From contig JAEILZ010000003.1 of NCBI GenBank assembly GCA_018873225.1, forward strand, positions 2,232,001 to 2,296,000: a stretch of 64,000 nt of DNA. The letters are read 5' to 3'. The notes beneath the pieces were generated by a model that was not told the origin of the DNA, did no database searches, and saw only the letters and a list, made by a program, of their open reading frames with translations. The DNA is from [Phialemoniopsis] sp. UDSM-2020. Lineage: Eukaryota; Ascomycota; Sordariomycetes; Thyridiales; Thyridiaceae. Both the position numbers and the translations under genes were made by a program. Below, in pieces: positions 6,919-32,884 of the stretch (the stretch's first letter is position 1; the number at the start of each line of letters is the position of its first letter).

Positions 6919-7203
6919 CTAATCGTTCGACATAGGGATGGTTTGCTGCACGCCCCTGCGAATTTCGGTCCAGCCAGGTAAGCTCTGAATAACAGTAAAT
7001 TTGATGATACCTGGTCTGGTTAGTCGACAAGGAGACCGTGTTATATACATATCTCCTGTGTAGTCTCCTTCTGCCGGCCATGGGCCCCTTCTTTCCATGC
7101 TGTCAGTATTGGTTGCCCCCACGGGCTTTTCGAACGAGGAAGTGTGGGCGTCCATAGCATAGGTCCCGTGAGGCTTCAAAGTCTGGCCGTTTTCGGTGCT
7201 CAT
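6919..7203 (-). CDS. Possible small gene or first exon, unknown
   Basis: Frame from ATG 7203 to a stop at 6919, 94 codons, hydrophilic, starting MSTENGQTLKPHGTYAMDAH. Inside it lies a plausible intron: GTATAT donor, CGACTAACC branch site, TTATTCAG acceptor, about 64 nt. The true product could therefore be a shorter spliced peptide with a different C-terminus. A TTTTAAG element sits about 30 nt upstream of the ATG. I cannot assign a function. It is in the same orientation as the ORF at 6501-6842 and could share a transcript with it. Confidence 0.25.
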   Translation of the reverse strand: MSTENGQTLKPHGTYAMDAHTSSFEKPVGATNTDSMERRGPWPAEGDYTGDMYITRSPCRLTRPGIIKFTVIQSLPGWTEIRRGVQQTIPMSND

Positions 7204-8574
7204 AGCTCAGGACGAACCCTCCCATCCGCTTAAAAGCCAACAAGAAGGATGGTCGACCGTCTTGGCAGGCGTAATGTTATTCGTCTCTCTAATCTTCCGT
7301 GTCACACTAAATGGCGAGGCCAACTCTGACGGAGCCAGATCGGAATGGCACGGCTGTCAGATCTTTACCGTCGTACGCTAGGCATTAGAAAACAGGCCAG
7401 AATGACGTCCCGAGCAGTTTCTAAACGGTCGTGTCCGTAAGGCATCCAAAGGCTACTTGTGCTCTGCCTAACACCCAGGCTGGTTCGGGGATGCAATAGG
7501 CCACGGCTGCCCACATGGCCATGGCGGGACAACTCAGAGCAGGCTGGAAGCATGCCCGAGTCCAATTACTTGACCCTGTGCCTTGCTTTAGCTTGGATTC
7601 ATGACGTAGAAAACGGACCATAACAGAGCTGTCAAGTCAACTTGGGGGTAAGAGGCTGAATTTGCCACTCGGAAAGTATGGCTTGAGTTCCCCGGCTGTG
7701 CTTGGTGTGGTGACATGTCGGGGTCCAGAGGAAGTACTGAATTGACTAGCCTTGCAAGCGAGCTGAAGAACTGCTCGGTGTACGGCATGATTGCTCACGA
7801 AAATTGCAGTCCTGCTCGAATTCAGCGGCTGCTTTGACAACCCGAAAAATCCCATAAGGCAGGTCATGGGATTCTTAATGATCGGCGGGATCTGCAATGT
7901 ATCTGTCCGTATGAGAACCCTGACTACCCCGACCATCTCCAATCGCAGACGGGATGGCCCGCACTCGTGTCGGCGGGGACAGTACGTACTCCGTAATTTT
8001 TGTGACTTCCAGCATAGAGGGGTCCTAAGCCGTTCTTCCGCGCTCAACGTCAACACTGTCAGATTCGAATTGAGTTCCTATTCCTACCACGTAGATGAAG
8101 ACCGATGGCATCGTAAATGGCACTGCACAAGGCTGCCTCCCACGAATGACGTTCAAAAAGGTACGTATCCTGGGTCAAAAATGATGTCAGCGGCTGGATT
8201 TGTGACAGGACCCTTGGCTCCGCCCACTTGTTGGCGCGTAGTACAATCGTACGATCAATCAATCCGAGGGATTGGTGACGAATTAGAAAAGAGTTCTCGG
8301 CCAAAAACACCACCAACTGCCACACACATGTATTCGCTGGATTCAATTTGGTATTGATGCTGACTCGACCTTGGAACTACCCAGGGAGATACTAGAGAAG
8401 CTCTTCAGTTTCTTGAATTTTGTTTTGCGTCGTGCCATTATGATGGAAGCGTCTCATCGTCAAAGTGTTGTAGTGGATGTCTTCCATGCAAAACAATTGG
8501 CCACATATGCCAGTCGTCATTGGCTTCCAAAAATGAGATAAAGATATTTCGAGTCCTTTTTCTCGTGTTCCTCC
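7204..8574. other. Intergenic, no supported gene
   Basis: Frames on both strands (7637-8056 minus, 7791-8357 plus) overlap each other, show no family motif and have unconvincing composition. The region is likely the 3' flank of the P450 gene plus the promoter of the small ORF at 7203. Confidence 0.5.
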
Positions 8575-10484
8575 TTATGTGGTCTGCTGCCTTGCCTTCT
8601 CACTCAATTTCACCTTGACAAGCATTCCATCCTTTGGCCTGGACGTGACCTGCATAGTCTAATGCATGTCACAGTTAGCATACACCAATCGGAGACAGGC
8701 GGGCATGGGGGTGAAGACTTGCCTGGTACAACTTCTCCTTGACCTCATACTGGCCCATCTTGTTTTCAAAAGGCTTTCCGTCCTTGTCATGCGCCAACTC
8801 GCCCAGGCCGACCTTGACGAAGTCGAATCTCCGCACAACACAGGCCAAGATCACGCGGGCCTCAATATTGGCCAGCTCCTGTCCGATACAGTTGCGCGGG
8901 CCTCGCTCAAATGGTCGCCATGCGCTGGCTGGCGTCTTCTTCTCGTCTTGATTCTTCAGCCCAGCTTTCTCGTTTGTCTCGTCCGCCAGTCCGCTGTTGG
9001 TGGCCTCGGAAGTGTCCGTGTCACCGAGCCAGCGTTCCGGGAAGAAGTCATGGGCCGTCTCGCCATAGACCTTCTCATCGCGTTGAATGATGTAGTGGTT
9101 CAGGTAGATCACCATGCCATCGATCGGGAATTGCTGACCTGTCTCGGTATGCGTGACGACAAAGTTGTTGCCCGGGGGAGATAACCGCGCAGTACCTGCC
9201 GGCGGGTGAAGACGGAGTGTCTCCTTGATAACGGCCGATGTGTACACCATTCGTCGCACAATGTCGTCACCGCTAGAGATGAGCTTGCGCCGAACAACGT
9301 CTGGGTCGGTCTCAGAACCAAAGAGTTCGTCGAGCTCGCTCCGAATCGCCTGCAATGCCCGGGGTGTCCGCGACAGCTCATAGAATGCCCATTGCAACAG
9401 GATGCTGGTGGTGTCATGGCCGGCGAAGAGAAACGATTTCAGTTGGTCGCATGTTGCCTCAACGACAGCGTCGTCGACCTTGTCAAGCCCCTGAAGACTC
9501 AGAGAGAGAACACTTCGTGACTTCTTCTTGGTTTGGCCAGTCTCCTGTCTCTCCGCGTTATACTTTGACCAGACCAATGCCCGAAGCTTCTCCTGTAGCA
9601 TGCGGGAATAGCGGCTTCGCCTAGAGGCAAGGAACGGATTGTAGAACTTGAATCCGCGGTTAGTGTCATTATCGTAAGTCTTCATAAGTTTACGATAAAG
9701 AGTAAGCGTGTCGTCTTGATCCTTCTCATCAAGCTGAGCACCGAAATCTACGTCCATCACAACAGCGCCTGGATAGAGTTCAGCAGATGATTCAGGCACA
9801 GTGAGATCGAGGGGTCAAAGCCTGACTGACCGATGATATCAAAAGTGAGTCCGGTCAGATAGTATTCCAGGACGAACTCTTCCCCTGTCTTAGCAAGGCG
9901 CTCCAAGTGATCAACAAAGAACTTCGTCTTGTCGACGATAAGCGGCAAAAGCGTGAGGAGATGTTGCGGGGCGAAACCTGGATTGAATCGCTTTCGAAGC
10001 GCTTTCCATTGCTCTCCCTAGGGGGATATGTCAGCCGACACCCAACCTCGTGTAAGCCATGCAGGCATAGTTTTACCTCGTTGATCAGAATGGATTGATA
10101 ACCAATGAGTGGCAGCAGATTCGAAAAAGTGGGCGATTTGGGTACACTCCAGTGGTAGGACTTGGAGACCTTGGAGACCTGCTCAGCCAGGTCGTGGTCG
10201 CAGATGATGGCCATGGGATACTGCATCGGCCAGGTATCAATGGCGAACATTGGGGGGTTCCCTAACTTCTCGCGCATTTTGGTGAACGCGAGATCGACGT
10301 GCCCTTGTGGAGGGCCGCTCTGCAGGTACTCATGAATGTTCTTGAGGTCGCCCCATACCAACGACAGAGGTCGCAGCTGTGGCAAGCCAGCAAGCTGCTT
10401 GTAGCGATGGTAGCGGAGGCGCGTGTAGAGGTAAACCAGGACCAGCGGGATCGCCGCGAGAATGAGGGGACCAACCCCGACCAT
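8575..10484 (-). CDS. Cytochrome P450 monooxygenase (CYP4/CYP52-like fungal class)
   Basis: Haem-thiolate monooxygenase anchored in the ER, with unknown substrate. Four exons: 10484-10077, 10017-9831, 9768-8723 and 8649-8575, giving 571 residues. The ATG at 10484 is chosen because the longer open frame (to 10595) starts at a GTG and has no upstream ATG. This start places a hydrophobic anchor at residues 5-22. Hallmarks are the I-helix AGHDTTS (314-320), the K-helix ETLR (381-384), and the haem loop FERGPRNCIG with Cys492. The exon 2/3 junction rebuilds DIIGAVVMDVDFGAQ, typical of this class. The last intron uses a GC donor. The resemblance to mycotoxin-pathway P450s is only at clan level. The nearest other oxidative gene is the ABM protein at 14.5 kb. 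Confidence 0.9.
8650..8722 (-). other. GC-AG intron in the P450 gene
   Basis: Exon 3 ends TACCAG and is followed by GCAAGT instead of GTAAGT. The intron has a GCTAACT branch site and a TATGCAG acceptor. Removing these 73 nt appends VTSRPKDGMLVKVKL and nine more residues, the normal P450 C-terminus. Reading through would end in an unrelated tail. Confidence 0.8.
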
Positions 10485-11824
10485 GGCGGGCAAAAGTTGA
10501 CCGATGTCACTCGAGTAGAAGATGCCAGTAGGTGGTTCCAGGAGGCTGATAGAACAACAGGAGAAAAAGGCGATAGCTAGTAGACTGCTAAACACCAGTC
10601 TTTTTCGGGCTTGAGCAAGACGTGAAAGCGTTGAGCAGTAGAAATACGAAGAAGCACATTGGCTAGTGATTTATTAAAGTGCGTAGGAGTTCCATGGATA
10701 ATTACTCGTGACAGGACCCTGTCACCCCGTCTACTTAGTACCTAATCGAAGCGGCCACGCTAGGTGACTAGTGAAGAAAGGTCCGAGCCAGCACGCAGTC
10801 GCCTCACCACCTACGGAGGTACGGTTACGAGTACTCGCTCACTCGGATTACTAGTGTACTACTACGACGGTTGCAGGCTTTACGTTCCGAAAGGGCCTCC
10901 CTGGTCGCGTCCGCCCTTGGCTCTATCGACACTGAACCCGATCGCATGACTTTTGCCGTCTATCTGCGCGTACGGAGGTACACATGGCCTCAGTCGTGAC
11001 AGGGATAAGATATACGATTCACGGTGTGCCTACCTATCACCACTTTACAGGCTCTTCGTCTCTCTCATGTGGCCTTCGGAAAGGTGAAGACAGCATTGGT
11101 GAGGATTGTCAAGCGATGTTGAGTACGTGCAACCAATGCTCGGAGAGGTGGCGCTACCCTAGACTTTTGTACACACCTACTTTACACTGGAAGATCGACA
11201 ATTCACGCATGCATGTCTGGTCTTTTCTTGCTCGGTAGCTGCTAACCCCATTTGCAAGAATAAACCGTCTTGTCAACGGGACGGAGCCATCAAATGAGCC
11301 GCCTCGCACTCCGTAACGCGACTAGGGACACCCAGCCTGTCAAGATTGCACCGTTGCATGCAGCCCCCAACCGGCTCTGCGTCTGCCCGAACCGAACATT
11401 CTTCCAGGCATGTACAAGATCCACTTTAATTGTACAGCTAAGTCGTACAGAGCAGGGCCAGTTGTGCATGGGTACCTCTCTTGAAGCTCGCATGCTTTAT
11501 CATCAGTTTTTATTGTGATCGGAGACAGTGAATCCTCGAATATTGCAACCTTGGATTTTTATGGATCGGCTCCATTTAGATGATGCTACGACTAACAATG
11601 ATTGCCCCTTCAGCAGGAGGAGTTCGTGATCAGCGCGGCGCAGCACAAAACAGTGGATCATCAACATTAACCTTAACAAGAAACCTTAAATAACCCTGAA
11701 TCCTTATGCGACGACCCGAGAGACTGCAATCACTGTATTTCAAGACAGGCAAAGGTACAATGGTCATGGCGAAAACAATCAAATTCTGACATAGAAAACA
11801 AGGAAAGAGTCTAATCGCGCTGTC
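10485..11824. other. Intergenic, no supported gene
   Basis: P450 promoter and 3' flank of the ankyrin gene. Short plus-strand frames near 10764, 10984 and 11270 show no motif. Several CTACGGAGGTAC-like words occur, as is common in ascomycete intergenic DNA. Confidence 0.55.
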
Positions 11825-14008
11825 CTAGACAAGCCCATCCAGCATTAAGTTCTCCAGCGTCTCCAGCTCAAGCTGCGCACTTTCTGCTCCAAGCCATTCA
11901 TCTCCATCTCCAAGTCCTCGGCTATCTTCTTCGTTGTGCTCGCAACCCCAAAGTGCAGGTGTGCACTCTTCCCTGATCATGTCCCTGTCCCAGCTATCAA
12001 ACCTGTCATTGTAATCCTGGTCGTCCTGGTCGCTATAGTCGTCATCGCTCGGCCAGCTCGCTTCACTATCGTTGTCCCAACTCTCCTGCTCGGGGTATAG
12101 CCACCTCTTGATCCGTGGCAGGCCTTGTGTCACGACCCTCAAGGCAATCTCATCCATTGTGATCATGCCGAACTCCTCAAGAATTCGCAGGGGTTCCTTT
12201 CGATCTCTCGCGATAGCATCATCGAAGATCATCTGTATATAGTTCTTGTCAAGGCCGTGTCCCGAGTTGCTGAAGTAGCGAGCAAAACACTCGAAGATCT
12301 GATAATAAGGTCCTCCTCGCAGATACCACTCCGAAGCTGCGAGGCACGCATGGCTATGAGTTAAGTTCTGTTGGGTTGAATGCCTCAAAATGCAGTCCAG
12401 AGCCTCGTAAGACAAGTTGGGATGTTCCAAGATCAAGCGTAACGGCTGCCGTGATCCTTCCAGGCGAGCGCCATACGCGAGGAGCAACCGAATCTTCTCT
12501 TCGCGGTCGTTGATACGCCATCCATCCAGTCCCGCTAGGTAGACGAGAGGCGACATGTCTATCTGCCCCGTCAGGGCCCACGAATTCGCATTCGCGCCGT
12601 TCTTCAACGCTTCCTCAACGCTTCGAGCGGTGCTGTGCAGCGCAAGCCACAGCGAAAATGACTTTCGTGACCCGAGCATGCATCGAAGGGTTGAGATCTT
12701 GTCGCGATATGGGTACGCTGCTAACAACGCCAATGCCATAGCCGCTCGAGCCTCTCGCCACTTGCTCTGCCATTCCTCTTCGGGTTCTTCGTCGTTCCAT
12801 GCAGGGATTTCGGGCCCGAAATACCAACTCCAATCGTTGCCGGGACAGGAGTAATTGAAGTCATTATAGCCATCAAAATCGAGAAACGTCAGGTATGGTT
12901 GACAAAGATCCTCCAGGTGTGAATCCAGCAGAAGATGGTCACTGTTGTACTGTTCTCCAGCTCCAGCCTCCCACATCACTAAAGCCTCAGGGTAACGGCG
13001 ACAGTTCATTGCGTGTACGAATGGCGATCTGTAAGAAGTTCTAGACGGGTCAGACTGTTGATAGTTCGGGTCGATGCCAGCATTCATCAGTAGAGTAACG
13101 ACGGCAGGGTTGGAGTTATAAAAGCCTGCGTGGTGTAGTGCATTGCTGCCGTCAGAGTCGGTGTGATTCAGATCGCATTCAAGCCGGGCCAAGAGAAGTC
13201 GTACTACGTCCGCGTGTCCATGAGCCGCCGCGGTGGTCAAGGCCGAGAGCCCGTGTGCTGAAAGGCCCTGACTTGGCATGGCCATCATTGCAGTGGTAGC
13301 TCCGTCCACGAAAAGCGACTCGACTGTGCTTGAATGCCCATGGCATATTGCTAGGTGAAGTGGCGTCCAAAGAGTGTTGTCACAGTCTATTAGACCATTC
13401 ACCGACGGGACGAAATGGCAATCGCATAAGCCATTTCCTCCATCTTGAAGATTGGCGCCATGTGCGGAAAGCCAATGAATGATGCGATCATGCCCTAAAG
13501 CTGCGGCGATGTGTGTCAAAGAACACTTCAGCTCATACCTCCGCCATGGAAGAGGATGTCCTGTGAGATTGAACTTCTTATTGCGATCGGCTGAGATCGT
13601 CCACTGTTTGCCAACAATTTGGTCGTCTATATCGAGTAAGCGATCAAGTAGTCTGACCTGATTGTTCGCGACTGCCCACACTGCAAGATCAGCGTCATGC
13701 TCCCTCAGATTCTTCTGGTAGACCTCTTGAGAGAAGACATTGTCGAGGTGCCGATTGACGAGTCTGAGGAGCCCAATTTCGTTCCACGTGCAGTGACTAC
13801 CGATCATCATCAGTAATTCTACTGGTAGATAGTCGAAGGCAAGAATGTGCTGTGGTGCCTGAACCGTAGTCATCGTGGCAAATTGCGGTCGAAGGCTTTG
13901 CAAATATCTCAATCTGTACTGCTTTGATCTAGTTGGCCGTGGTGGGATCCAGGTGCTGTAGCTGAAGTCGAGATTTGTTGTAGAATTGCTGAGGTGAAAT
14001 TCTATCAT
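11825..14008 (-). CDS. F-box-like / ankyrin-repeat protein
   Basis: Single exon. The longer open frame begins with TTG, and true ATGs lie at 14008 (727 residues) and 13873 (682 residues). The second starts MTTVQAPQHILAFDYLP directly before the domain and may be the real start. An F-box-like motif (LPVELLMMIGSHCTWNEIGLL) is followed by ankyrin repeats. Examples are TPLHLAICHGHSSTVESLFV, LTTAAAHGHADVVRLLLARL and ALHHAGFYNSNPAVVTLLMN. The C-terminal ~100 residues are strongly acidic (runs of D, E and S). Such fungal proteins are thought to act as adaptors in ubiquitin ligases or protein scaffolds, but the partner is unknown. No nearby gene suggests a specific job. Confidence 0.82.
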   Translation of the reverse strand: MIEFHLSNSTTNLDFSYSTWIPPRPTRSKQYRLRYLQSLRPQFATMTTVQAPQHILAFDYLPVELLMMIGSHCTWNEIGLLRLVNRHLDNVFSQEVYQKNLREHDADLAVWAVANNQVRLLDRLLDIDDQIVGKQWTISADRNKKFNLTGHPLPWRRYELKCSLTHIAAALGHDRIIHWLSAHGANLQDGGNGLCDCHFVPSVNGLIDCDNTLWTPLHLAICHGHSSTVESLFVDGATTAMMAMPSQGLSAHGLSALTTAAAHGHADVVRLLLARLECDLNHTDSDGSNALHHAGFYNSNPAVVTLLMNAGIDPNYQQSDPSRTSYRSPFVHAMNCRRYPEALVMWEAGAGEQYNSDHLLLDSHLEDLCQPYLTFLDFDGYNDFNYSCPGNDWSWYFGPEIPAWNDEEPEEEWQSKWREARAAMALALLAAYPYRDKISTLRCMLGSRKSFSLWLALHSTARSVEEALKNGANANSWALTGQIDMSPLVYLAGLDGWRINDREEKIRLLLAYGARLEGSRQPLRLILEHPNLSYEALDCILRHSTQQNLTHSHACLAASEWYLRGGPYYQIFECFARYFSNSGHGLDKNYIQMIFDDAIARDRKEPLRILEEFGMITMDEIALRVVTQGLPRIKRWLYPEQESWDNDSEASWPSDDDYSDQDDQDYNDRFDSWDRDMIREECTPALWGCEHNEEDSRGLGDGDEWLGAESAQLELETLENLMLDGLV

Positions 14009-14503
14009 GAGGCTTCTGGATAGTGTCAAATTTATATAGTGAGATCCAAGCTGCCTTCACCCGGCCAGCAAAGGTCATTGAGAGCTCCCAACGTGGTGGA
14101 AGCTGTATGATTCAGGTCTTGGTTCATAACAAGCCCTCAATCAACAGAACAGTGAGATCACCAAATATTCAACAGTTATTGTGACTCGCCATCTAGTGTC
14201 ACTACACAAACAAAAGATTTGGGGCTTTATGCTACAGGTGGGCTGTTCAGTTGATCACTACTGACGTTTTGTCACGGACAAAGGCTATTGAGTCATTTGT
14301 CTGTCACCAATGTATCTTTGCACTCCTATACTCTTCTTGAATGTCTTGGAATTTTCAAAAGCTTTGTGCATACATGTGCGCCTAGCGAGTATGTTAAAAA
14401 GATGACAAAGAACACATACTCTTTCATCATGAGAACCGCCCCTTCTTTGAAGTGCCTGACTCAGAACTACGGGCTCATTCACAGCAAGATGTCAGTTCTC
14501 CTG
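14009..14503. other. Intergenic, no supported gene
   Basis: Ankyrin-gene promoter side and ABM-gene 3' flank. The plus-strand frame beginning at 14288 runs on into the antisense of the ABM gene and is not convincing. Confidence 0.55.
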
Positions 14504-14903
14504 CTACTCGTCTTGCGGTCGAATCGGCTTGACGAATTTGGCCTCAACACTTTTGATGTAATTGTCGGCCAGAAGTTTCTTAATGATTGGTTGGGAATTG
14601 TGGTCATTGAAAGCGTGTCTCCCCGTATATCTCTCAAAGAAATGGAACTTGTTCGTATCGTCTCCATCTCTAGCAATGCAATAATAAATGATACCGGCCT
14701 CGTCCTTGGCGAGCCGCGTCGTCTCAGTGTAGACTGCCTCGAGCGCATCGGCATATTGTGGGTTGGCCCAGACCTGCGAAGGCAGTTAGAGGTGAGTACG
14801 ATGAGTATACTTCAAGGAATGTAGAAAGACCTACAATGCCAAAGACACAGAATTCATCCACGGGAATGGGTGGAAGATTCGGAATGGATACGCCTTCAGT
14901 CAT
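14504..14903 (-). CDS. Small ABM-domain (antibiotic biosynthesis monooxygenase) protein
   Basis: Two exons, 14903-14835 and 14773-14504, joined in phase 0 across a 61-nt intron (GTAGGT donor, CTCTAACTG branch, TCGCAG acceptor), give 112 residues. Exon 2 has no ATG, so simple ORF calling misses it, and a longer antisense frame covers it. The protein reads as a dimeric alpha+beta barrel: VWANPQYADALEAVYTETTR, then AGIIYYCIARD, then FHFFERYTGRHAFNDHNSQP and IKSVEAKFVKPI. This is the usual ABM pattern, with a beta-strand, F-x-E-R-Y and a conserved His. Family members oxidise or degrade small reactive molecules, some without cofactor, in secondary metabolism or stress responses. The substrate cannot be read from sequence. 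It is divergent from SDA1. Confidence 0.85.
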
Positions 14904-15462
14904 CTCGCAGAACGTGGACTAGGCAAGGTGGAATCAGAAATCGACAACAAAGCAATAATGTGTGAATGTTCTCAGGATATGGAAAGAGTTTGTCAAAGAG
15001 GAAGATTATAGATTTGGAGAATTGATGTGCTTCAGTAGGTAATTGCTCCTAGTATAATCGCGTCAGGCCCTCGCTCGGAGCTCCGCTGTTGCACAATATC
15101 AGACGGCGAGGTTTTGAATATTGTAGTCCGATTTTCGAACTTTACGTCTTGTATCAATAAATATATGAACGGTCAAGGGCTCATAATGAAGTCACCAGCT
15201 TTTTCATCCAAAGAGATCCGTGAATAGTTGACGTGTGAATAGGAGATGCTCCCTTACAAGTAATGGATAGGTACACTCAGTATATTCACCCCACCAAAAT
15301 GCTACCCCACCCAGTCTCACATGGCACCTGGGAGCCCCACTCAGAGCTGATAAGATTAGATAGAAGATAAGACAAAAGTACGAGAAGAGCAAAAAAAAAA
15401 GTCAGGACTGACAATTGGACGTATTTCGGACCATTCTCAAGACAACAAACCTGCAAGCCACG
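14904..15462. other. Divergent promoter between ABM gene and SDA1
   Basis: 559 bp with no open frame of note. An A-rich tract sits just upstream of the SDA1 start (around 15391-15400). Confidence 0.6.
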
Positions 15463-23768: not shown

Positions 23769-25885
23769 TCACGCCGATGCAGCCGCGGCACGTGCAGGAC
23801 GCCTTCTAGTGTCATGGACCGGATCTTCGTCGTCAACTTGGGTGCTCGAGCCCTCCACTGGCTCGGGAACGGCTTTGGCCCGCTCAACCCCGAGTACGGC
23901 TCCCTCATGTTCCCGACTGAGAACATGAGCCCGGACGAAGAAGTTGCAAACTGTAGCAAGACCAGCGAAGGCCACATACTGTTACTTAATCATTAGCGTT
24001 TTGGCCAGCATTGATAGATATAGAACAAAGGCAAGAAAGAACATCGCTAGAGACCATGTCGCCACTTACCATAATCCAAGCCGTCCTCAACCCTTTGAAA
24101 TATGCCTGCCTGACAAAAGCTTGGTGGTCTGGAGGTAGTAATTCAATCAAGCCGACATTGGCAGAGGCTCCATTGCCACTGAACCTACTTGCCTCCTCTG
24201 CGCCGATCTTGACAACCAAGCCCGGATTCTCTGTGTTCATCTGGTTCTGGAAGACAACTCCGCCAACTACGATCGAAATGGCCGTAGACAGGGACCGGAC
24301 GAAGCTCATGGTCGCAATAACTGCGGCGTTATCCCGCACAGTCAAGGCTGCCTGGGCCGCTACAAGGGGTGCCTCGAGGTTCATCCCTATTCCGGCGCCC
24401 AAAAGCAGCTGAAATATGAAGAGCTTCGCGGGGCTCTCCCCGTACTCGAGATCAATGAACAACCCGACACCCAGAGTTGTGAGAAGCTGGCCGAAATACA
24501 GAACGGGAAGATACTTGCCAGTCTTCTGGATGTAGACGCCCGAGAAGGCGGCCAGTAGGGACGCCGATACAATAAGCGGTAGAAGGTAGAGACCGGAAGT
24601 CAACGCGCTCGTCCCCAGTACCGACTGAAGGTACAGCGGAAGGTAATACGCCGCACCAAAGAAGACGTACGAGTTGCAGAAACATATTCCGAAAGCGGCA
24701 AAGGACGATGCGCTTTTGAAGAGCCGCAAAGGAATGATCGGGTTGACAGCCCATCTCCACTCATTGAATAGAAACATCCCGATGACAACAGGACCGAAGA
24801 CAAGGAGACAGATCACTGTCGGCGAGGACCAAGGATGACTGACCCCGCCAAACTCGAGACCGAAGAGGGCCATCAGCGTCCCGCCAATGACCAGAGAGCC
24901 CCCAGTCCAGTCAATGACCTTCAGTCCAGCCTTAACAGGCGTGTGAGGACTGGGGATATCCAGATAGAATATGTCCATGAGAAGTACTACTGCGCCGATA
25001 GGGACTACATCGGGAGATAATCAGAATCATGCCATACAATCAGGAAGAGGAAAGCTTACGGTTGATCCAAAAACACCACCGCCAACTGATCAACGTAGTG
25101 AAGACTCCGCCTAGCAATGGACCGATAGCACTTATGACAGCCCATACCACCGACGTGATAGCAAAGTATGCGCCGCGGTCCCGCAAAGAGAACATATCGC
25201 TGATGATGACATTGACCATGGTGCCCATTCCCGCCGCACCAAGACCTTGGATGGCGCGGCCGGCGATGAATGGCCCTAGCTCATTGACGAGGGCGCATAT
25301 GAGGCTTCCCACAAGAAATGTGCAAAGGCAAACTAGTTTGATAATCTTGCGGCCCCAAATGTCAGACAGAGATGCCCAGACAGGCGTGGTTGCTGTCTGG
25401 GCAAGGACGAAAGCACCGCCGATCCAGGTGTAGCCCGAAACGGAACCAAAGGACGCGACAATAGCGGGCATGGCCGTGGTCACAATGGTCAAGTCGAGTG
25501 CCGATAGCACTACCGACAAGCACAAAATCACCATCGATATGGCAATGTTTGTGCGAGACCGTTTCTTGGGAGGTATCTCGACCCCCGGCTCAGCCGGTGA
25601 TGAGGGTGATGGTGGCGATGCGTCAGGTTGGGTACTGTTATTGGGAGGACTGATACTGGACGCGCTGGTGACATCTGACCCGCGCCGTCGGCCAGCCGCA
25701 TTACCTTCTTTCCGGGACGAGTGGCCTGCACGGGGGCCGGTGCGTTCGCCATCACGGCGATCGGATGCATCATGATCAACGGCGCTACGGGCGACGGCGC
25801 CGTCGACTACTGACAACGGGATCCCGGTGCTGGCATCTCCACCAAAGACACCTGTTGCTGGAGCAGCTGAGGCAAGGCGAACCAT
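23769..25885 (-). CDS. MFS transporter, DHA2-like (14-TM drug/toxin efflux type)
   Basis: Proton-driven efflux pump of the plasma membrane. Three exons: 25885-25060, 25004-24070 and 23978-23769, giving 656 residues. The start is the ATG at 25885; the open frame further up begins with TTG. A disordered Ser/Pro-rich N-terminal tail of about 110 residues precedes the first membrane helix (TNIAISMVILCLSVVLSALD). The DHA2 motif LDLTIVTTAMPAI, motif A SDIWGRK and AGRAIQGLGAAGMG are present. Joining at 25060/25004 rebuilds CFWINLPIGAVVLLM, and at 24070/23978 rebuilds RTAWIMYVAFAGLA with the last helix. Such pumps often sit in secondary-metabolite clusters, and this one is 3 kb from a RiPP-like precursor, so product export or self-protection is a reasonable guess. 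Confidence 0.9.
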
Positions 25886-26220
25886 GACGAAAAGCAAAAT
25901 GAACGAATTGTTAAGATTACGATTTCAAGTTCTGTTGCATGCTGGAGTGTCGTTCCCTTTCTACTACTTGTAGGGAAAGGTTTGTCCCAAAGTCCGAGTC
26001 AGTCATGCTATGGCCTAATTTGTGGGTGCTGCGGACTTTTCCACAGTGCCGGATCTCCGCCACGAGGTCCTGGAGGAACAGACAATGTCTCCACTGTAAA
26101 TACCGAAGCCCCGGATACCTCAGCTCATTCCAACATGCCTTGGTTTGCAATGTTCACATTAGTAATTGATCGGAATTATAGGCAACCGCTCTTGAATATG
26201 ACATGCTATTTGCCTTCACT
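25886..26220. other. Intergenic, no supported gene
   Basis: 335 bp between two tandem minus-strand genes: promoter of the MFS gene and 3' end of the 744-residue protein gene. Nothing else seen. Confidence 0.6.
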
Positions 26221-28455
26221 CTAATAAGCAGTCGGTGCTTTCCACGCAACCTCATCATCATACCTCCTGTAGACGACGGGTGGTATCTTGTTTGGCGCAG
26301 CGGATGCTAGTCTTGTCGTTTTAGGCTTCAGCAATATCTCTGTACTGCCCGTGCTCTTCTTCTCCCGTACAAACATTCGTAGATTCCACGTCTCCTTGTC
26401 GATCAACATGGACTGGTCCTGGGACAGGATGCCAAAATGATCTGCCCGCATTGCCAATGCCACGAGCTCGCCCACGTCTGCCCAGCCCACCGTCTTGTGC
26501 GTTCTTTTGCGAAAGAAGTTCTCTAACCAGTGTGCTAGGATCCACACAACATGCAGAAGGAGCAACGCGAACGCCATGGATACAGAGAATCCCCGCAGAC
26601 CATACGCAGATCTGCTTTCCAGATAGGATGAAGAAACACCCGTCATGCTCAAGAAGTCTTCCATTGTAAAGCTTTGGGTGGTCGGGGGAGCGCCCGGCAA
26701 TTGCAGTGAGCACGAGATGTCCTGGGCGTACCAAATGCCCAAGGGGTCCTTGGGGCATCGGATTGTCCCCCAAGAATATTGTAAGCGCGACAGAGCATCA
26801 GTCAAGTACAATGACATTCCGATGGCCAGGCACCTTGTAGTTGAGTCAGTGTTACTCGAGCAAACATCGCTCAAGTGGTCGAACACGAGCATCGTCTTGT
26901 GCTTGCTGTTATTGTCCGAACTCGTGTCAGAAGCATTCAGTGGGGCGTTCAACGACTTTGCCCAGTCTGGAGATATCTGAAGGATTGCATCTCTGCTCTC
27001 AAAAGTCTTGGTGACTTTAGATCTGGGGTCCACTGATATATTTGTCAAAGGAGAGTCCTCGGAAGGCTCGAAGCTTGTCACATCAGATTTGATCCATCTC
27101 GCGAAAACTATACAGAGCGTACGTAAGTCTGCTGCTTGGTGTATGAAAGATGCTGAGATAGGTCCAAGCTCTGGGGTGGATATGTCGATGAACTGGAGGT
27201 TCCCGTTGTCTTGATGAGTTTGGTTAAGATCCATAATTTCTTTGCTTAGCAACAATGGTGAATGATAAGGGCCGTTGGTGAAGTGCACGATGCTTCCACT
27301 TGGTCCTTCTTGAATCAGGGCGCATTGAACGGCAACGGCCGGCTGCTTCCAGAACTGCGTTGAGCCCGTCAAAGCCTTCCCCTCTCCAGCATCTCCGTTA
27401 GGGACCGAGGTAGGAGTGAAGGATATGGAGACTGACTGCGTTTTCAGACGCAGCTGTAGGCGCTCCCGGAGTCCTCTCCCCTGCTCCCGGAGTTCGGAAA
27501 CAACAAAGTCAGAGGCAGTGGTGGAGTAAGCCACAGTACTTCCATCTTCTGAACCATGGTCAAATTTCCAACCCAAAGAGATATCTCTCACATGATGCGG
27601 TGTTTTCACGGTGATGTTTGTTGAGAATTCTTCCTCGTGGACAGCTTTGAACAGTCGTTGGATGTAGTTGAGGATGTCTGAGAACCCACCAAAGGGACAT
27701 GAGGCTGCCTCATCCAAACTCAGAGCCAGTTTGCCAAGTGCAGCCGCCTGACAAGTCCCAGTGATAGTTGACAGATCGATTTTATTAGGATACAGAGAGT
27801 CGAAAGACGTGTGTAGAAGAAGGGGAGTAGTTTCGACGCTTGAGACTATACTGTTGTCTCGGATGGGCCACCAGTCAACTTTGGGTAGCATGACGGTGCC
27901 AGCGCTTGGTCCTGCGAAGATTGCCACCAAGAGAGCGGACACAATGTATAAGAGTGTGGTATGGTCGCCTTGCGCTCCTTTGCGCGATCCTATCGCGACG
28001 GCCCAAAATTGGCGACTGAACGGATAGAGTGGCGAGTTCAGCTGGAACGGGGACGCGAGGAATCCAAGAGGGACACCATGTGAGCTCTGCAAGGCAGATC
28101 GGATGCGATGAAATAGGATGGACGAAAGAGATCCAACAATGGAAAACTCGTACAGCTTGGCGCCCACAAGTAACAAACTGACTTGATCTGGGGTAGGGCT
28201 CCAGGTGAATCGCTTCGCGTGGATTACAAGGAGTCCAAGCGTGACCACTATGCAGGGTATTTGGACAAGAAAGACAGTATACCACGGGAAATCCGTATAT
28301 GTCTTTCCAGTGTGCTGAGGTGGATCGTCACAGAGCGTGTCGGCTGTTGTTGTTCGTTCAAAGCTATCTGCTTTGCAGAAATTGCTGACCGAAGCTTGAC
28401 CACATGAACAAATTCTTGACGAAAGCGTGTGATCTATGGGCGTGCAAGATGTCAT
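26221..28455 (-). CDS. Multi-pass membrane protein of unknown function (744 aa)
   Basis: Single-exon gene from ATG 28455. I recognise no named family beyond a resemblance to large fungal-only membrane proteins. Three hydrophobic segments lie in the first ~190 residues: YTVFLVQIPCIVVTLGLLVI; a second around 95-120; and LLYIVSALLVAIFAGPSAGT. A large polar, probably extracellular, loop of about 430 residues follows, with several N-x-S/T sites. One more helix (SMAFALLLLHVVWILAHWL) precedes a basic cytosolic tail. The Cys-rich N-terminus (SRICSCGQASVSNFC) is unusual. It lies between a drug-type transporter and the RiPP-like precursor, all on the minus strand, but nothing in the protein itself ties it to that pathway. 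Confidence 0.8.
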   Translation of the reverse strand: MTSCTPIDHTLSSRICSCGQASVSNFCKADSFERTTTADTLCDDPPQHTGKTYTDFPWYTVFLVQIPCIVVTLGLLVIHAKRFTWSPTPDQVSLLLVGAKLYEFSIVGSLSSILFHRIRSALQSSHGVPLGFLASPFQLNSPLYPFSRQFWAVAIGSRKGAQGDHTTLLYIVSALLVAIFAGPSAGTVMLPKVDWWPIRDNSIVSSVETTPLLLHTSFDSLYPNKIDLSTITGTCQAAALGKLALSLDEAASCPFGGFSDILNYIQRLFKAVHEEEFSTNITVKTPHHVRDISLGWKFDHGSEDGSTVAYSTTASDFVVSELREQGRGLRERLQLRLKTQSVSISFTPTSVPNGDAGEGKALTGSTQFWKQPAVAVQCALIQEGPSGSIVHFTNGPYHSPLLLSKEIMDLNQTHQDNGNLQFIDISTPELGPISASFIHQAADLRTLCIVFARWIKSDVTSFEPSEDSPLTNISVDPRSKVTKTFESRDAILQISPDWAKSLNAPLNASDTSSDNNSKHKTMLVFDHLSDVCSSNTDSTTRCLAIGMSLYLTDALSRLQYSWGTIRCPKDPLGIWYAQDISCSLQLPGAPPTTQSFTMEDFLSMTGVSSSYLESRSAYGLRGFSVSMAFALLLLHVVWILAHWLENFFRKRTHKTVGWADVGELVALAMRADHFGILSQDQSMLIDKETWNLRMFVREKKSTGSTEILLKPKTTRLASAAPNKIPPVVYRRYDDEVAWKAPTAY

Positions 28456-28975: not shown

Positions 28976-29421
28976 TCAGTCTGTGCTTTCGTAGAGAGCG
29001 GGAATATAGAGATCTGTGGACTCCCCAGTCTCAGCGTCCTGCTTTGCACTTTCATAGAGTGCCGGGATGTAGAGATCTTCAGCGTCTTCTTTAGCCACGT
29101 CTTTTGCATCGCGCTTCGCATTCCAGTCGTAGATAGTCGCGAAATAGACCTCGTCAACATCTCCGGCATCTGCCTTACGCTCTACGTTGTCCATGCCACG
29201 CTCCTGTTTGACACCTTCGGCTGCCGCCAAAGATAGGGGCCTGTACAACTTCGTCGGCCCATAGACCTCCTGGGGAGCGCGAGGATCAGTCTATACAGGG
29301 CTTGTCAGTGGCGGTATCCGTGAAGGCCGGTCATTAGGGGCTGAAATACTTTTACAGGAGCTGCTGAGATCTCGAGAGTGGCGAAAGCCACAATGAGACT
29401 AGCCATGATAGAAGGACGCAT
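28976..29421 (-). CDS. Candidate RiPP precursor: secreted repeat protein
   Basis: Two exons, 29421-29356 and 29290-28976, join in phase 0 over a 65-nt intron (GTAAAA donor, CACTGAC branch, GTATAG acceptor) to give 126 residues. Exon 1 is almost exactly a signal peptide (MRPSIMASLIVAFATLEISA, 22 residues with the cleavage-like AAP). The mature part is hydrophilic, rich in D, E, A and K, and holds repeated Tyr-bracketed hydrophobic motifs. These are VYFATIYDW (70-78), LYIPALYES (95-103) and again LYIPALYES (116-124), the last reaching to two residues before the stop. VYGPTKLY (31-38) may be a degenerate fourth. Acid- and Lys-rich spacers separate them, including one clear dibasic Kex2-type site (NAKR, 79-82) and an RK at 60-61. 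Signal peptide, repeats and dibasic site match the architecture of fungal dikaritin-type precursors. The gene next door encodes a UstYa-type oxidase. Function is inferred; it could also be an unrelated secreted repeat peptide. Confidence 0.75.
28985..29149 (-). repeat. Imperfect tandem repeat encoding the putative core peptides
   Basis: Units lie at 29149-29123, 29077-29048 and 29014-28985. The last two encode the identical DLYIPALYES, while the DNA differs at the third base of six of the ten codons. Tyr-to-Tyr spacing between units is 25 and then 21 residues, so the units are not a fresh slippage product. Confidence 0.8.
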
Positions 29422-30137
29422 CTTGGTAATGGGTTCGGGTTTTTCCTTGTCGTCAATGTAGAGGAATTTAGAGAATATGTATTATGAGATGAGTTGTGTT
29501 GGGAGCTGTGAGTGAGAGCGAAGATGCTTGCCTGCTCTTTATACTTCAAAGATGTGAAGAGATTCAACGTAAATGTCAATGCAGTTCTCCATAGCCCATA
29601 GACGCAGCTCCTCGCACGATAACTTGTTTCAATAGCCTATTCAATATATTTGACAGCCTACTTTACGGTTTGCTCATTTTGATTTGCAGACATTGCGTGT
29701 CACTGCATTTGAGACGTCGATGATGACAGTGTGGTCGTCCAGTCCTGTTAAATACATCAGCTCGCTGACCATGTTGTCAAAGGCCGGGAATGGAAGGTCA
29801 CACATCAACAATGCGTACACGCAGGAGGTAGGCTATTTTGAAATGCTCAACGATGGACTGCCTGACAAACATCGCTGCAGGGCGATCACTATCGCAGTTT
29901 TGAAAAGTAAAGATTACATAGCCTACTGCATGGAAAGCTGGCCGAGTTTCTCTATTGCTCCCCTTCGAACATGCTCGAGCTGTCAATTCTTTTCCTTTGC
30001 CTTTAGATTGATTCGGCTGCGTGTTCTTTGTCTGAGTTCAGTCATCTCTCAGGAGTAGATGGAACACATGTTAGAACTCACTGCAACACTTATTGCATGG
30101 TCTTTCTTCCAAGCCACAGCATTATTGAACGTCGAAG
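29422..30137. promoter_or_regulatory. Divergent promoter shared by precursor and UstYa-type genes
   Basis: 716 bp separate the two start codons, which face away from each other. There is no convincing gene inside; the plus-strand frame 29684-30058 is motif-free. Such head-to-head arrangement allows co-regulation from common sites. Confidence 0.6.
29537..29543 (-). promoter_or_regulatory. TATA box of the precursor gene
   Basis: TATAAAG on the minus strand, 115 nt upstream of the ATG at 29421. It supports 29421 as the start of a real, probably strongly inducible, transcript. Confidence 0.5.
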
Positions 30138-31192
30138 ATGTCACTTTACTCTGATACGAGCCTTCGCGATCCCGCTGTAAATCAACAAGAGGACATGCAG
30201 GACGAAGACGGCGACGAAAAGCACAGCTTCTTACATCAAGGGCTCATTCAACATTATCCCTTGAAAAGCTACACTAGGACACTTTACATACTCACGTTCC
30301 TCAATGCAGCTATGCTGATACTCACCGGAGGCCTGTTTGCTGCCTGGCTGAATGCTACACACTTGGTTCGAAATGCCGACCTGCGGCGTGTATCGAGCTA
30401 CAGTAAGTCATTCGAGGTGAAGCAAGTAAGAATTTCTTGGCTTGACTAACAGATTAAGGCCCTATCCACAATCAGGTTGATCTCGACATGAGAATACTCA
30501 CTACCAACGGCACGCTCTTTCCTCCTAAACACCCTTCACTCGCGCGGCAGATGCCCAACGATGCAGCCGACCAGCTTTGGAGCGAGTGGGAACTCACTCG
30601 GGTACTTCCCATCACCCGTTCAGACATAATTCGCATGGGCAAGGATCCCAGCACGGTAGCCAAACTCGATGACGCTCTCTGGGGCCTCGGCGACGATGCA
30701 TATGTTGCAACGCTTGATGTCTATCACCAACTTCATTGTCTCAACTCACTGCGCCACTTCGCCTACGGTTCATATTATTCTGTGTCAGGAGCTAATGCTA
30801 CTGGCACATCCATGAACGAGATTCATCTCAATCATTGCGTGGACATGCTGATGCAGGCGCTACAATGCAGTGGCAATGTCAACCTCATCACCATGCACTG
30901 GGTCGAAACACAGTCCTATCCTTTCCCTGATATGTAAGTGTTTCAGTGCGATGTCTCTTCTGCTACTCCTGACACTGTGCGCAGGTCTGTGAACCGGAAG
31001 TGTATCAACTTCGACAGATTGACCGAATGGAGGCGAGAGAATACAATTGACATGGACAAGTATCTCGAGGTGATGCAGAAGCCGGATGGAGTGAAACAAC
31101 GGCCTGCACCGGATGCTCTTTATGCATACCACGGTCTAGATAGTCCGAACCACGAAGGTGGTGCCAATCCTAGCGATGATTTCAATTTCTAG
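30138..31192 (+). CDS. UstYa-like (DUF3328) oxidase
   Basis: Three exons, 30138-30402, 30459-30933 and 30985-31192, with consistent phases, give 315 residues. Residues ~48-73 (LYILTFLNAAMLILTGGLFAAW) form a single N-terminal membrane anchor, the usual UstYa topology. The catalytic part has the two diagnostic HxxHC motifs: YHQLHCLNSLR (HQLHC about 178-182) and IHLNHCVDMLMQALQC (HLNHC about 211-215). Exon 3 adds SVNRKCINFDRLTEW, the conserved RKC/DF..W block. Members of this family catalyse oxidative side-chain cyclisation or hydroxylation in fungal RiPP pathways (ustiloxin-type), and related ones act in other secondary metabolism. The Tyr-rich repeat precursor diverges from the same promoter. 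The first acceptor is AAG rather than CAG; the nearer CAG would give an immediate stop. Confidence 0.92.
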
Positions 31193-32035: not shown

Positions 32036-32884
32036 TCATTTTTTCTTGCCATGCTTGTCCCGGAGATGCCTTTTGAGGTTATCTTTCCGAGTAAATGTCT
32101 CGCCGCACTTCTCACATTGAGCTTCCTCAGAGGGGATGTTTTGCTCTTTAGCATACTCTTTGTGTGTGTTGTGGTAGTGGCGGTCAAGGTCACGTTTCGC
32201 AGCCTTTCTAGTGGGACATTGTGGATAGAAGTGGCAGAGGAACGGCTTTGTATGCGTGTCTTCATGCTTCCTGATGTAGAATATCATCGTCAGCGATTGG
32301 TTCCCTCATGTCGTCGCCGCCTAGCTCGAACTAAACTTTACTTACTTGAGCTCTGAATGAGTATCGAACCACCTTTGGCATTCTGCATAAGGGCATCTGA
32401 TGCTTGTAGACGTAGTGGCCGCTGTGTTTGTGTTGCTGACACTCCTAGATGCCTGCTGATAGCCGTACTGCTGGTTTCCCTGTTCCTGTGGCAACTGGGA
32501 CGCCACTGTTGGGTCACTAGTCGTCATGTACGATACAGTGGCTGGGATCATGAATGTCGGTGAAGAATTGGTCAAATTCGCGTAGTAGCCGTTGCCCGTG
32601 TTCACCCCTGACTGCTGGTCGTTTCCGGCCAACTGTGCATCGACCGTGGCCTATGGCTGCGGGGAAGGGGGAACATTGGGCATTGGATTTGTGCTTGGGG
32701 AGTAATCTGAATCCCAAAGCTGTTGTGGTTGACCTTGTGTATAATACCCAGAGAAGTTACTATAGCCGTAGAGCTGATTATAGGATCCATCGGACGTCTC
32801 GGGTATCTGTTGATTCTCTTCTCCTTGGCTCTGCGAACTTCGCCCGGACGAGTTCTGCGGCCGATCGTATCTTCGCGACATCAT
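32036..32884 (-). CDS. C2H2 zinc-finger transcription factor, interrupted by an in-frame TAG
   Basis: Exons 32884-32346 and 32270-32036 are separated by a good intron (GTAAGT donor, ATCAG acceptor) whose removal rebuilds HSELKKHEDTH. Three C2H2-like fingers follow: CPYAEC..HEDTH, CHFYPQC..HYHNTH and CEKCGETFTRKDNLKRHLRDKH (classical). A Lys-rich end (HGKKK) closes the protein. The N-terminal half is Q/S/Y-rich, as in activators. The frame holds a TAG at 32653-32651, with matching low-complexity sequence before (PPSPQP) and after (ATVDAQLAGNDQQSG) in the same frame. Options are a true nonsense mutation, an unrecognised intron (excising 32760-32608, 153 nt with GTAACT and GTCAG ends, restores the frame), or initiation at the ATG at 32551 with all fingers kept. 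It may regulate the adjacent RiPP-like genes. Confidence 0.7.

Follow-up and report, generated by a model that had tools for sequence, protein, structure and literature searches.

The minus strand of the window at 28976-29421 most probably carries the gene for a secreted precursor from which a dikaritin-like ribosomal peptide is made, whose tyrosine is predicted from the sequence to be oxidised by the product of an adjoining UstYa gene (30138-31192, plus strand), with a ring closed in each repeated unit. The window is the whole 64-kb stretch of DNA that was analysed, and it lies on contig C5 of a genome of 44.2 Mb in 11 contigs. The reading is based on the repeat protein, on the head-to-head position of the UstYa gene, on seven further pairs with the same layout in the genome, and on the synonymous-only divergence of the repeated unit. 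A fungal RiPP precursor of the dikaritin type was what the original prediction proposed, and this part is strengthened by the head-to-head UstYa gene and by the same layout at 7 of 10 other UstYa loci, while release of each core by Kex2 and ring closure through two tyrosines, which belonged to the same proposal, found no support.

The predicted precursor gene

The gene runs from 29421 to 28976 on the minus strand, and joining its two predicted exons gives, by reading of open frames and splice sites, a protein of 126 residues. The gene model had been described before, with the 65-nt intron, the units VYGPTKLY, VYFATIYDW and LYIPALYES (twice) and one NAKR site, and all of this was reproduced from the minus-strand sequence, with a 59-nt intron as an alternative.

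29356..29421, minus strand: precursor exon 1, MRPSIMASLIVAFATLEISAAP, signal-peptide-like by inspection; extends to 29350 under the alternative donor
29291..29355, minus strand: predicted 65-nt intron, GTAAAA..TAG; alternative donor GTATTT at 29349
28976..29290, minus strand: precursor exon 2, repeat units and stop codon, from the sequence
29243..29266, minus strand: weak unit VYGPTKLY, from the sequence
29123..29149, minus strand: unit VYFATIYDW, from the sequence
29111..29116, minus strand: sole KR dibasic site (NAKR) of the precursor, by site count
29048..29077, minus strand: first DLYIPALYES unit, followed by AKQ in place of KR
28985..29014, minus strand: second DLYIPALYES unit, running to the stop (YESTD)

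The 65-nt intron is a predicted one, and a CTGAC branch-type motif, found by eye, ends 13 nt before its 3' end. The donor GTATTT at 29349 would also keep the frame, giving a precursor of 128 residues (VK added). The frame also stays open with further acceptors, and both candidate donors are non-canonical. The signal-peptide-like start was judged by eye, with no predictor score behind it. The TATAAAG reported upstream of the gene is present at 29543..29537 on the minus strand, 116-122 nt 5' of the ATG. The protein contains no Cys, eight Tyr, one KR and one RK, and its units are surrounded by acidic spacers.

The repeated cores with an oxidisable aromatic residue are two Tyr units of the same sequence and one or two variants. 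Between the two DLYIPALYES copies 6 of 10 codons differ, each of them only by a synonymous change, a pattern with p of about 1e-4 to 4e-4 under random substitution (kappa 1-4), which implies that the peptide, and not the DNA, has been selected or kept. None of 60 simulated 64-kb sequences built on the trinucleotide statistics of the window had a stretch of 9 residues repeated exactly in the same frame at a distance of up to 60 residues. In a looser test (7-mers, one mismatch) the precursor was the top segment of the window, with 6 pairs against 5 for the next.

The adjoining UstYa gene and its neighbours

The original prediction had not mentioned a UstYa gene next to the precursor, but one is present, head-to-head at a distance of 716 bp.

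29422..30137: region of 716 bp between the divergent start codons, likely a shared promoter
30138..31192, plus strand: UstYa (PF11807) gene, 315 aa, three predicted exons (30138-30402, 30459-30933, 30985-31192)

The protein matches PF11807 with E=8.8e-52 and 176.6 bits, well above the curated cut-off of 25, and carries both motifs of the HxxHC type, HQLHC and HLNHC, and can be counted as a member of the family. The His and Cys of these motifs are invariant in all 16 sequences of an alignment made of the window protein and 15 chosen from 120 listed relatives. A membrane-anchor-like stretch is visible by eye near the N-terminus. Several splice choices are possible for the first intron, and the chosen one gives SSYSPIH, in agreement with the relatives P0001 and P0002. 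There are 175 relatives at E<=0.001, and the 120 of them that were listed come, where named, from many ascomycete genera, Metarhizium, Hypoxylon and Ascochyta included. Among these 120, the best long match is P0002 (66% identity over 75% of the query) and the highest identity is that of P0090 (68% over 56%). A PDB sequence search gave no match, and a profile scan of viral and prokaryote contigs brought up pattern matches without any relative among them, which is what a fungal gene would lead one to expect.

A dikaritin-type RiPP needs a UstYa/DUF3328 gene in its cluster, and the window locus has one. Because the precursor lies head-to-head with it, the precursor is likely to be the template of a ring-shaped secreted peptide. 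Two more genes of the window are possible partners of the pair, the first as a candidate for export and the other as a candidate regulator:

23986..25897, minus strand: MFS transporter, TRI12-like, in two open-frame pieces, by Pfam search
32039..32305, minus strand: C2H2 zinc-finger-like open frame, by inspection

Adjoining the precursor there is also an open frame of 744 residues (26221-28455, minus strand) with hydrophobic stretches, for which neither Pfam nor the 10 UstYa regions read besides the window gave a match. A cytochrome P450 gene (8675-10595, minus strand; PF00067 in 8675-9799 and a further open frame at 9855-10595) lies about 20 kb from the precursor/UstYa pair, with no evidence of belonging to it.

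UstYa loci in the genome

The PF11807 profile gave 34 exon matches in the genome, grouped into 18 loci, and 11 of these were read, the window and 10 others (10-kb stretches on each side). The 264 kb read are thus the window or sequence within about 10 kb of some UstYa gene. A clear repeat precursor was found at seven of the 10 other loci. By the repeat criterion it was absent from the 10-kb flanks of the remaining three, which means that a UstYa gene alone does not imply a precursor. Exact 9-residue repeats occurred in the 264 kb only in the eight precursors and in one antisense frame of one of them. All eight have a signal-like start, as judged by eye. An intron shortly behind it is required in six (the window and five of the seven others), its sites and phases being approximate across these loci, and two read straight through.

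The units of the seven other precursors are of the types ILPYKITTF, QVYGAHQLKxKEDDF, ILYNNAAGWG, VEPAYVWASPG, VRPYYDGHQLAFKE, DYIYPIP and I/V-WLW, in the same order as the loci below (joined coordinates for each):

L012/L013, ~8381-9668 (C9:2658 kb): six ILPYKITTF units split by KR, UstYa head-to-head at 754 bp
L014/L015, ~8155-9359 (C4:4053 kb): four QVYGAHQLKxKEDDF-type units
L016/L017, ~10971-12285 (C1:513 kb): five ILYNNAAGWGRKR units, precursor between UstYa genes
L018/L019, ~13125-15248 (C8:1.88 Mb): nine VEPAYVWASPGKR units; at least four UstYa matches cluster next to the precursor
L020/L021, ~10431-11758 (C6:3862 kb): four VRPYYDGHQLAFKE-type units, single KR
L022/L023, ~7115-9112 (C9:492 kb): eight DYIYPIP units with two kinds of tail (ASDAPE; PSVAPE or PSVSPE)
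L024/L025, ~10415-11586 (C5:1.295 Mb): five I/V-WLW units, no Tyr and 11 Trp, last junction SKQ; the substrate of the UstYa partner would here be Trp

In all eight precursor loci, window included, a UstYa gene is head-to-head with the precursor, at 716-1538 bp from ATG to ATG when UstYa start codons are picked by eye and possible intervening genes are disregarded. Further UstYa-like motifs are found at other places and orientations in L016/17, L018/19 and L022/23, and for this reason the nearest upstream UstYa was taken as the partner there. Where a locus has just one UstYa motif pair, as in five cases (the window, L012/13, L014/15, L020/21 and L024/25), the layout is always divergent, which by our own arithmetic has a probability of about 1e-3 if the chance of divergence is one in four. 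No convincing promoter motif was found in the eight divergent regions, where an 8-mer was common to at most four (no shuffled control). Six neighbour proteins of the window (two MFS pieces of one gene, the 744-residue frame, the zinc finger, the P450 and a second MFS) gave, in a comparison with the UstYa regions of the 10 other loci, a single weak MFS match of 53 aa, and the shared unit is thus the two-gene pair.

Closest relatives of the pair

The nearest enzymes to the window UstYa within the genome are, by tblastn, those of L020/21 (66% over 159 aa), L012/13 (60% over 210 aa) and L014/15 (40% over 208 aa), and all three have divergent precursors. A TATA-type site at 99-122 nt 5' of the precursor ATG is found only in the window and the two closest sisters, L020/21 and L012/13, three of the eight loci; in the sisters the site starts 104 and 99 nt upstream, respectively. 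A fourth precursor locus has such a site at 186 nt. The L020/L021 locus also resembles the window in its divergent layout (819 bp), in the start of its precursor, MRSSI as compared to MRPSI, and in the one KR and one RK of that precursor. It differs in having a VRPYYDGHQLAFKE-type core in four copies, and the two precursors cannot be aligned by BLAST.

BLAST of the window precursor against its sister precursors showed no similarity (best non-self E 1.2), a Pfam search gave no domain, and among 5.8 billion proteins 69 candidates shared words with it, none at E<=10. A search of its own genome returned the precursor and one match of E 0.58 on C10 (L011), taken as chance. Three of its units and six words of the other precursors had no match in the open papers searched. 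A profile was also made of four precursors, and among the first 7993 candidates, which were the ones scored, it matched one, P0121 of Coniochaeta sp. PMI_546. P0121 was rejected as a relative of the window precursor, being instead a homologue of the L014/15 precursor, and at least one of these precursor families thus exists in another fungus.

A MAFFT alignment of the window precursor with those of the three closest UstYa partners, four repetitive sequences in all, pairs IPALYES with RPFYDGHQ, LPQVYGAHQ and LPYKITTF. The Pro and the Tyr after it are invariant, and the first Tyr of YIPALY is variable. Oxidation is on this ground likely to fall on the second Tyr of YIPALY, although such an alignment is only suggestive. 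Closure of YIPALY through both Tyr side chains, as originally suggested, is not supported, since only the Tyr after Pro is invariant.

Core release and the putative pathway

A Kex2 dibasic site does not flank each core of the window precursor, whose 126 aa include a single KR and a single RK. The L020/21 precursor also has a single KR, and the other six have between three and nine. The two LYIPALYES units are not separated by any dibasic site, the first being followed by AKQ and the second by the stop, and the proposed release of each core by Kex2 is therefore not supported. Cut after NAKR, the protein would leave a tail of 44 residues holding both LYIPALYES units. The cores are then either released by another protease, or the tail is itself the product.

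In the proposed pathway the shared 716-bp region would drive both genes, and the precursor chain would enter the secretory pathway and meet the membrane-anchored UstYa. A cut by Kex2 after NAKR would give the 44-residue tail with both LYIPALYES units, and UstYa would then cross-link the Tyr following Pro to a residue near it, which may be the first Tyr of YIPALY. Trimming of the cores by other proteases would then release the cyclic peptide. A more speculative proposal, which we put forward as a possibility with the odds against it, is that the window and L020/L021 precursors form a Kex2-poor branch of UstYa peptides. After one cut at NAKR, UstYa would here close two identical Tyr-x4-Tyr rings within the 44-residue tail. 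The product would be a tandem two-ring peptide, and the divergent two-gene cassette behind it would escape searches for Kex2 repeats or homology.

Alternative explanations

The precursor could be a secreted repeat protein that yields linear, unmodified peptides of the signalling or pheromone type known from Kex2-repeat genes, with UstYa serving something else. In the PMC7329392 survey only 22% of the Kex2-repeat genes have a UstYa-type gene near, and KR is present once in the window precursor. The same survey found a UstYa-type gene near none of the alpha-mating-factor genes and near only three other pheromone genes; the UstYa gene is head-to-head here and at seven other precursors, and there are few cleavage sites to free linear peptides, which makes this explanation unlikely. 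We find it quite improbable, too, that the precursor is decaying, with repeats and Kex2 sites being lost and the locus now making little or nothing. The repeats are few and uneven, AKQ stands where KR might be expected, and the splice donors are non-canonical, but the reading frame is kept open, all six codon differences between the LYIPALYES units are synonymous, the partner UstYa retains the residues that are invariant among its relatives, and the closest sister precursor is equally poor in KR.

Many fungal effectors are Cys-rich. The window precursor, small, secreted-looking, acidic and repetitive, with its single KR, might be taken for an effector or wall protein that stays intact and is neither cut nor cyclised, but it is without any Cys and its layout is the same as in the other precursor/UstYa pairs of the genome, and we regard this as very improbable. 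That it is a chance open reading frame is hardly credible: no homologue was found in the protein collection, but the repeat criterion was satisfied in none of the 60 simulations and the DLYIPALYES copies diverge by synonymous changes only, which together contradict it.

Comparison with known fungal peptides

The dikaritin-like precursor read here can be set beside several known systems. The ustiloxin and phomopsin dikaritins, which have a signal peptide and a Tyr cross-link, share with the window locus the repeated cores and the DUF3328/UstYa neighbours, and the window precursor has a signal-peptide-like start. In these dikaritins KR stands at the repeats, a tyrosinase is present and the rings are Tyr-Ile, whereas KR is single in the window precursor and contig C5 has no match to tyrosinase (PF00264). 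The only S41 peptidase match (PF03572) in the genome is on C11. Neither a tyrosinase, which belongs to the ustiloxin and phomopsin clusters and not to that of asperipin, nor an S41 peptidase is thus found in the cluster, and the pathway therefore resembles that of asperipin-2a rather than those of ustiloxin and phomopsin.

The core of asperipin-2a is a Tyr-containing stretch of six residues, and a single gene of the UstYa type goes with it (PMC6514808). Its cluster in Aspergillus flavus has four genes, with a transporter and an isoflavone reductase among them, and no tyrosinase is listed for it in PMC6514808 and PMC12048977. The window's gene pair is like it in the precursor, here predicted to be secreted, in the Tyr-bearing six-residue core and in the one UstYa-type enzyme, and unlike it in the core itself, YIPALY as compared to FYYTGY. 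The epichloecyclins (GigA; PMC7317419) also have a multi-core precursor and a DUF3328 gene, theirs in a four-gene cluster, but this cluster has its own kexin gene, whereas the sole kexin-type P-domain match in the window genome is on another contig (C10).

The KEPs of PMC7329392 are, like the window precursor, secreted-looking and repeated. Their definition asks for three or more tandem repeats, each 8 aa or longer, that lie between KR/KK/RK/RR sites, and the window precursor, judged by hand and not by the published code, falls outside this rule because it has one KR. The survey also reports that DUF3328 (UstYa-type) genes peak at the position adjoining Kex2-repeat genes (PMC7329392). We found no description of a head-to-head precursor/UstYa layout in our literature search, which is not proof of its being unpublished.

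Implications

The dikaritins include the tubulin-binding ustiloxins and phomopsins. Precursors, being short and variable, may be missed when homology is searched for, which is what happened with the window precursor. Eight precursor/UstYa pairs of the same layout were found among the 11 UstYa loci read, and one of these precursors misses the published repeat rule. With the window precursor it could be tested in what way cores become free where dibasic sites are lacking. The layout also suggests a search recipe, which is to inspect the 1.5 kb or so in front of every UstYa gene for a head-to-head partner, and it could be aimed at the UstYa group that has Metarhizium, Hypoxylon and Ascochyta among the 120 of 175 relatives listed. 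The precursor/UstYa layout could in this way serve as a practical guide to such peptides.
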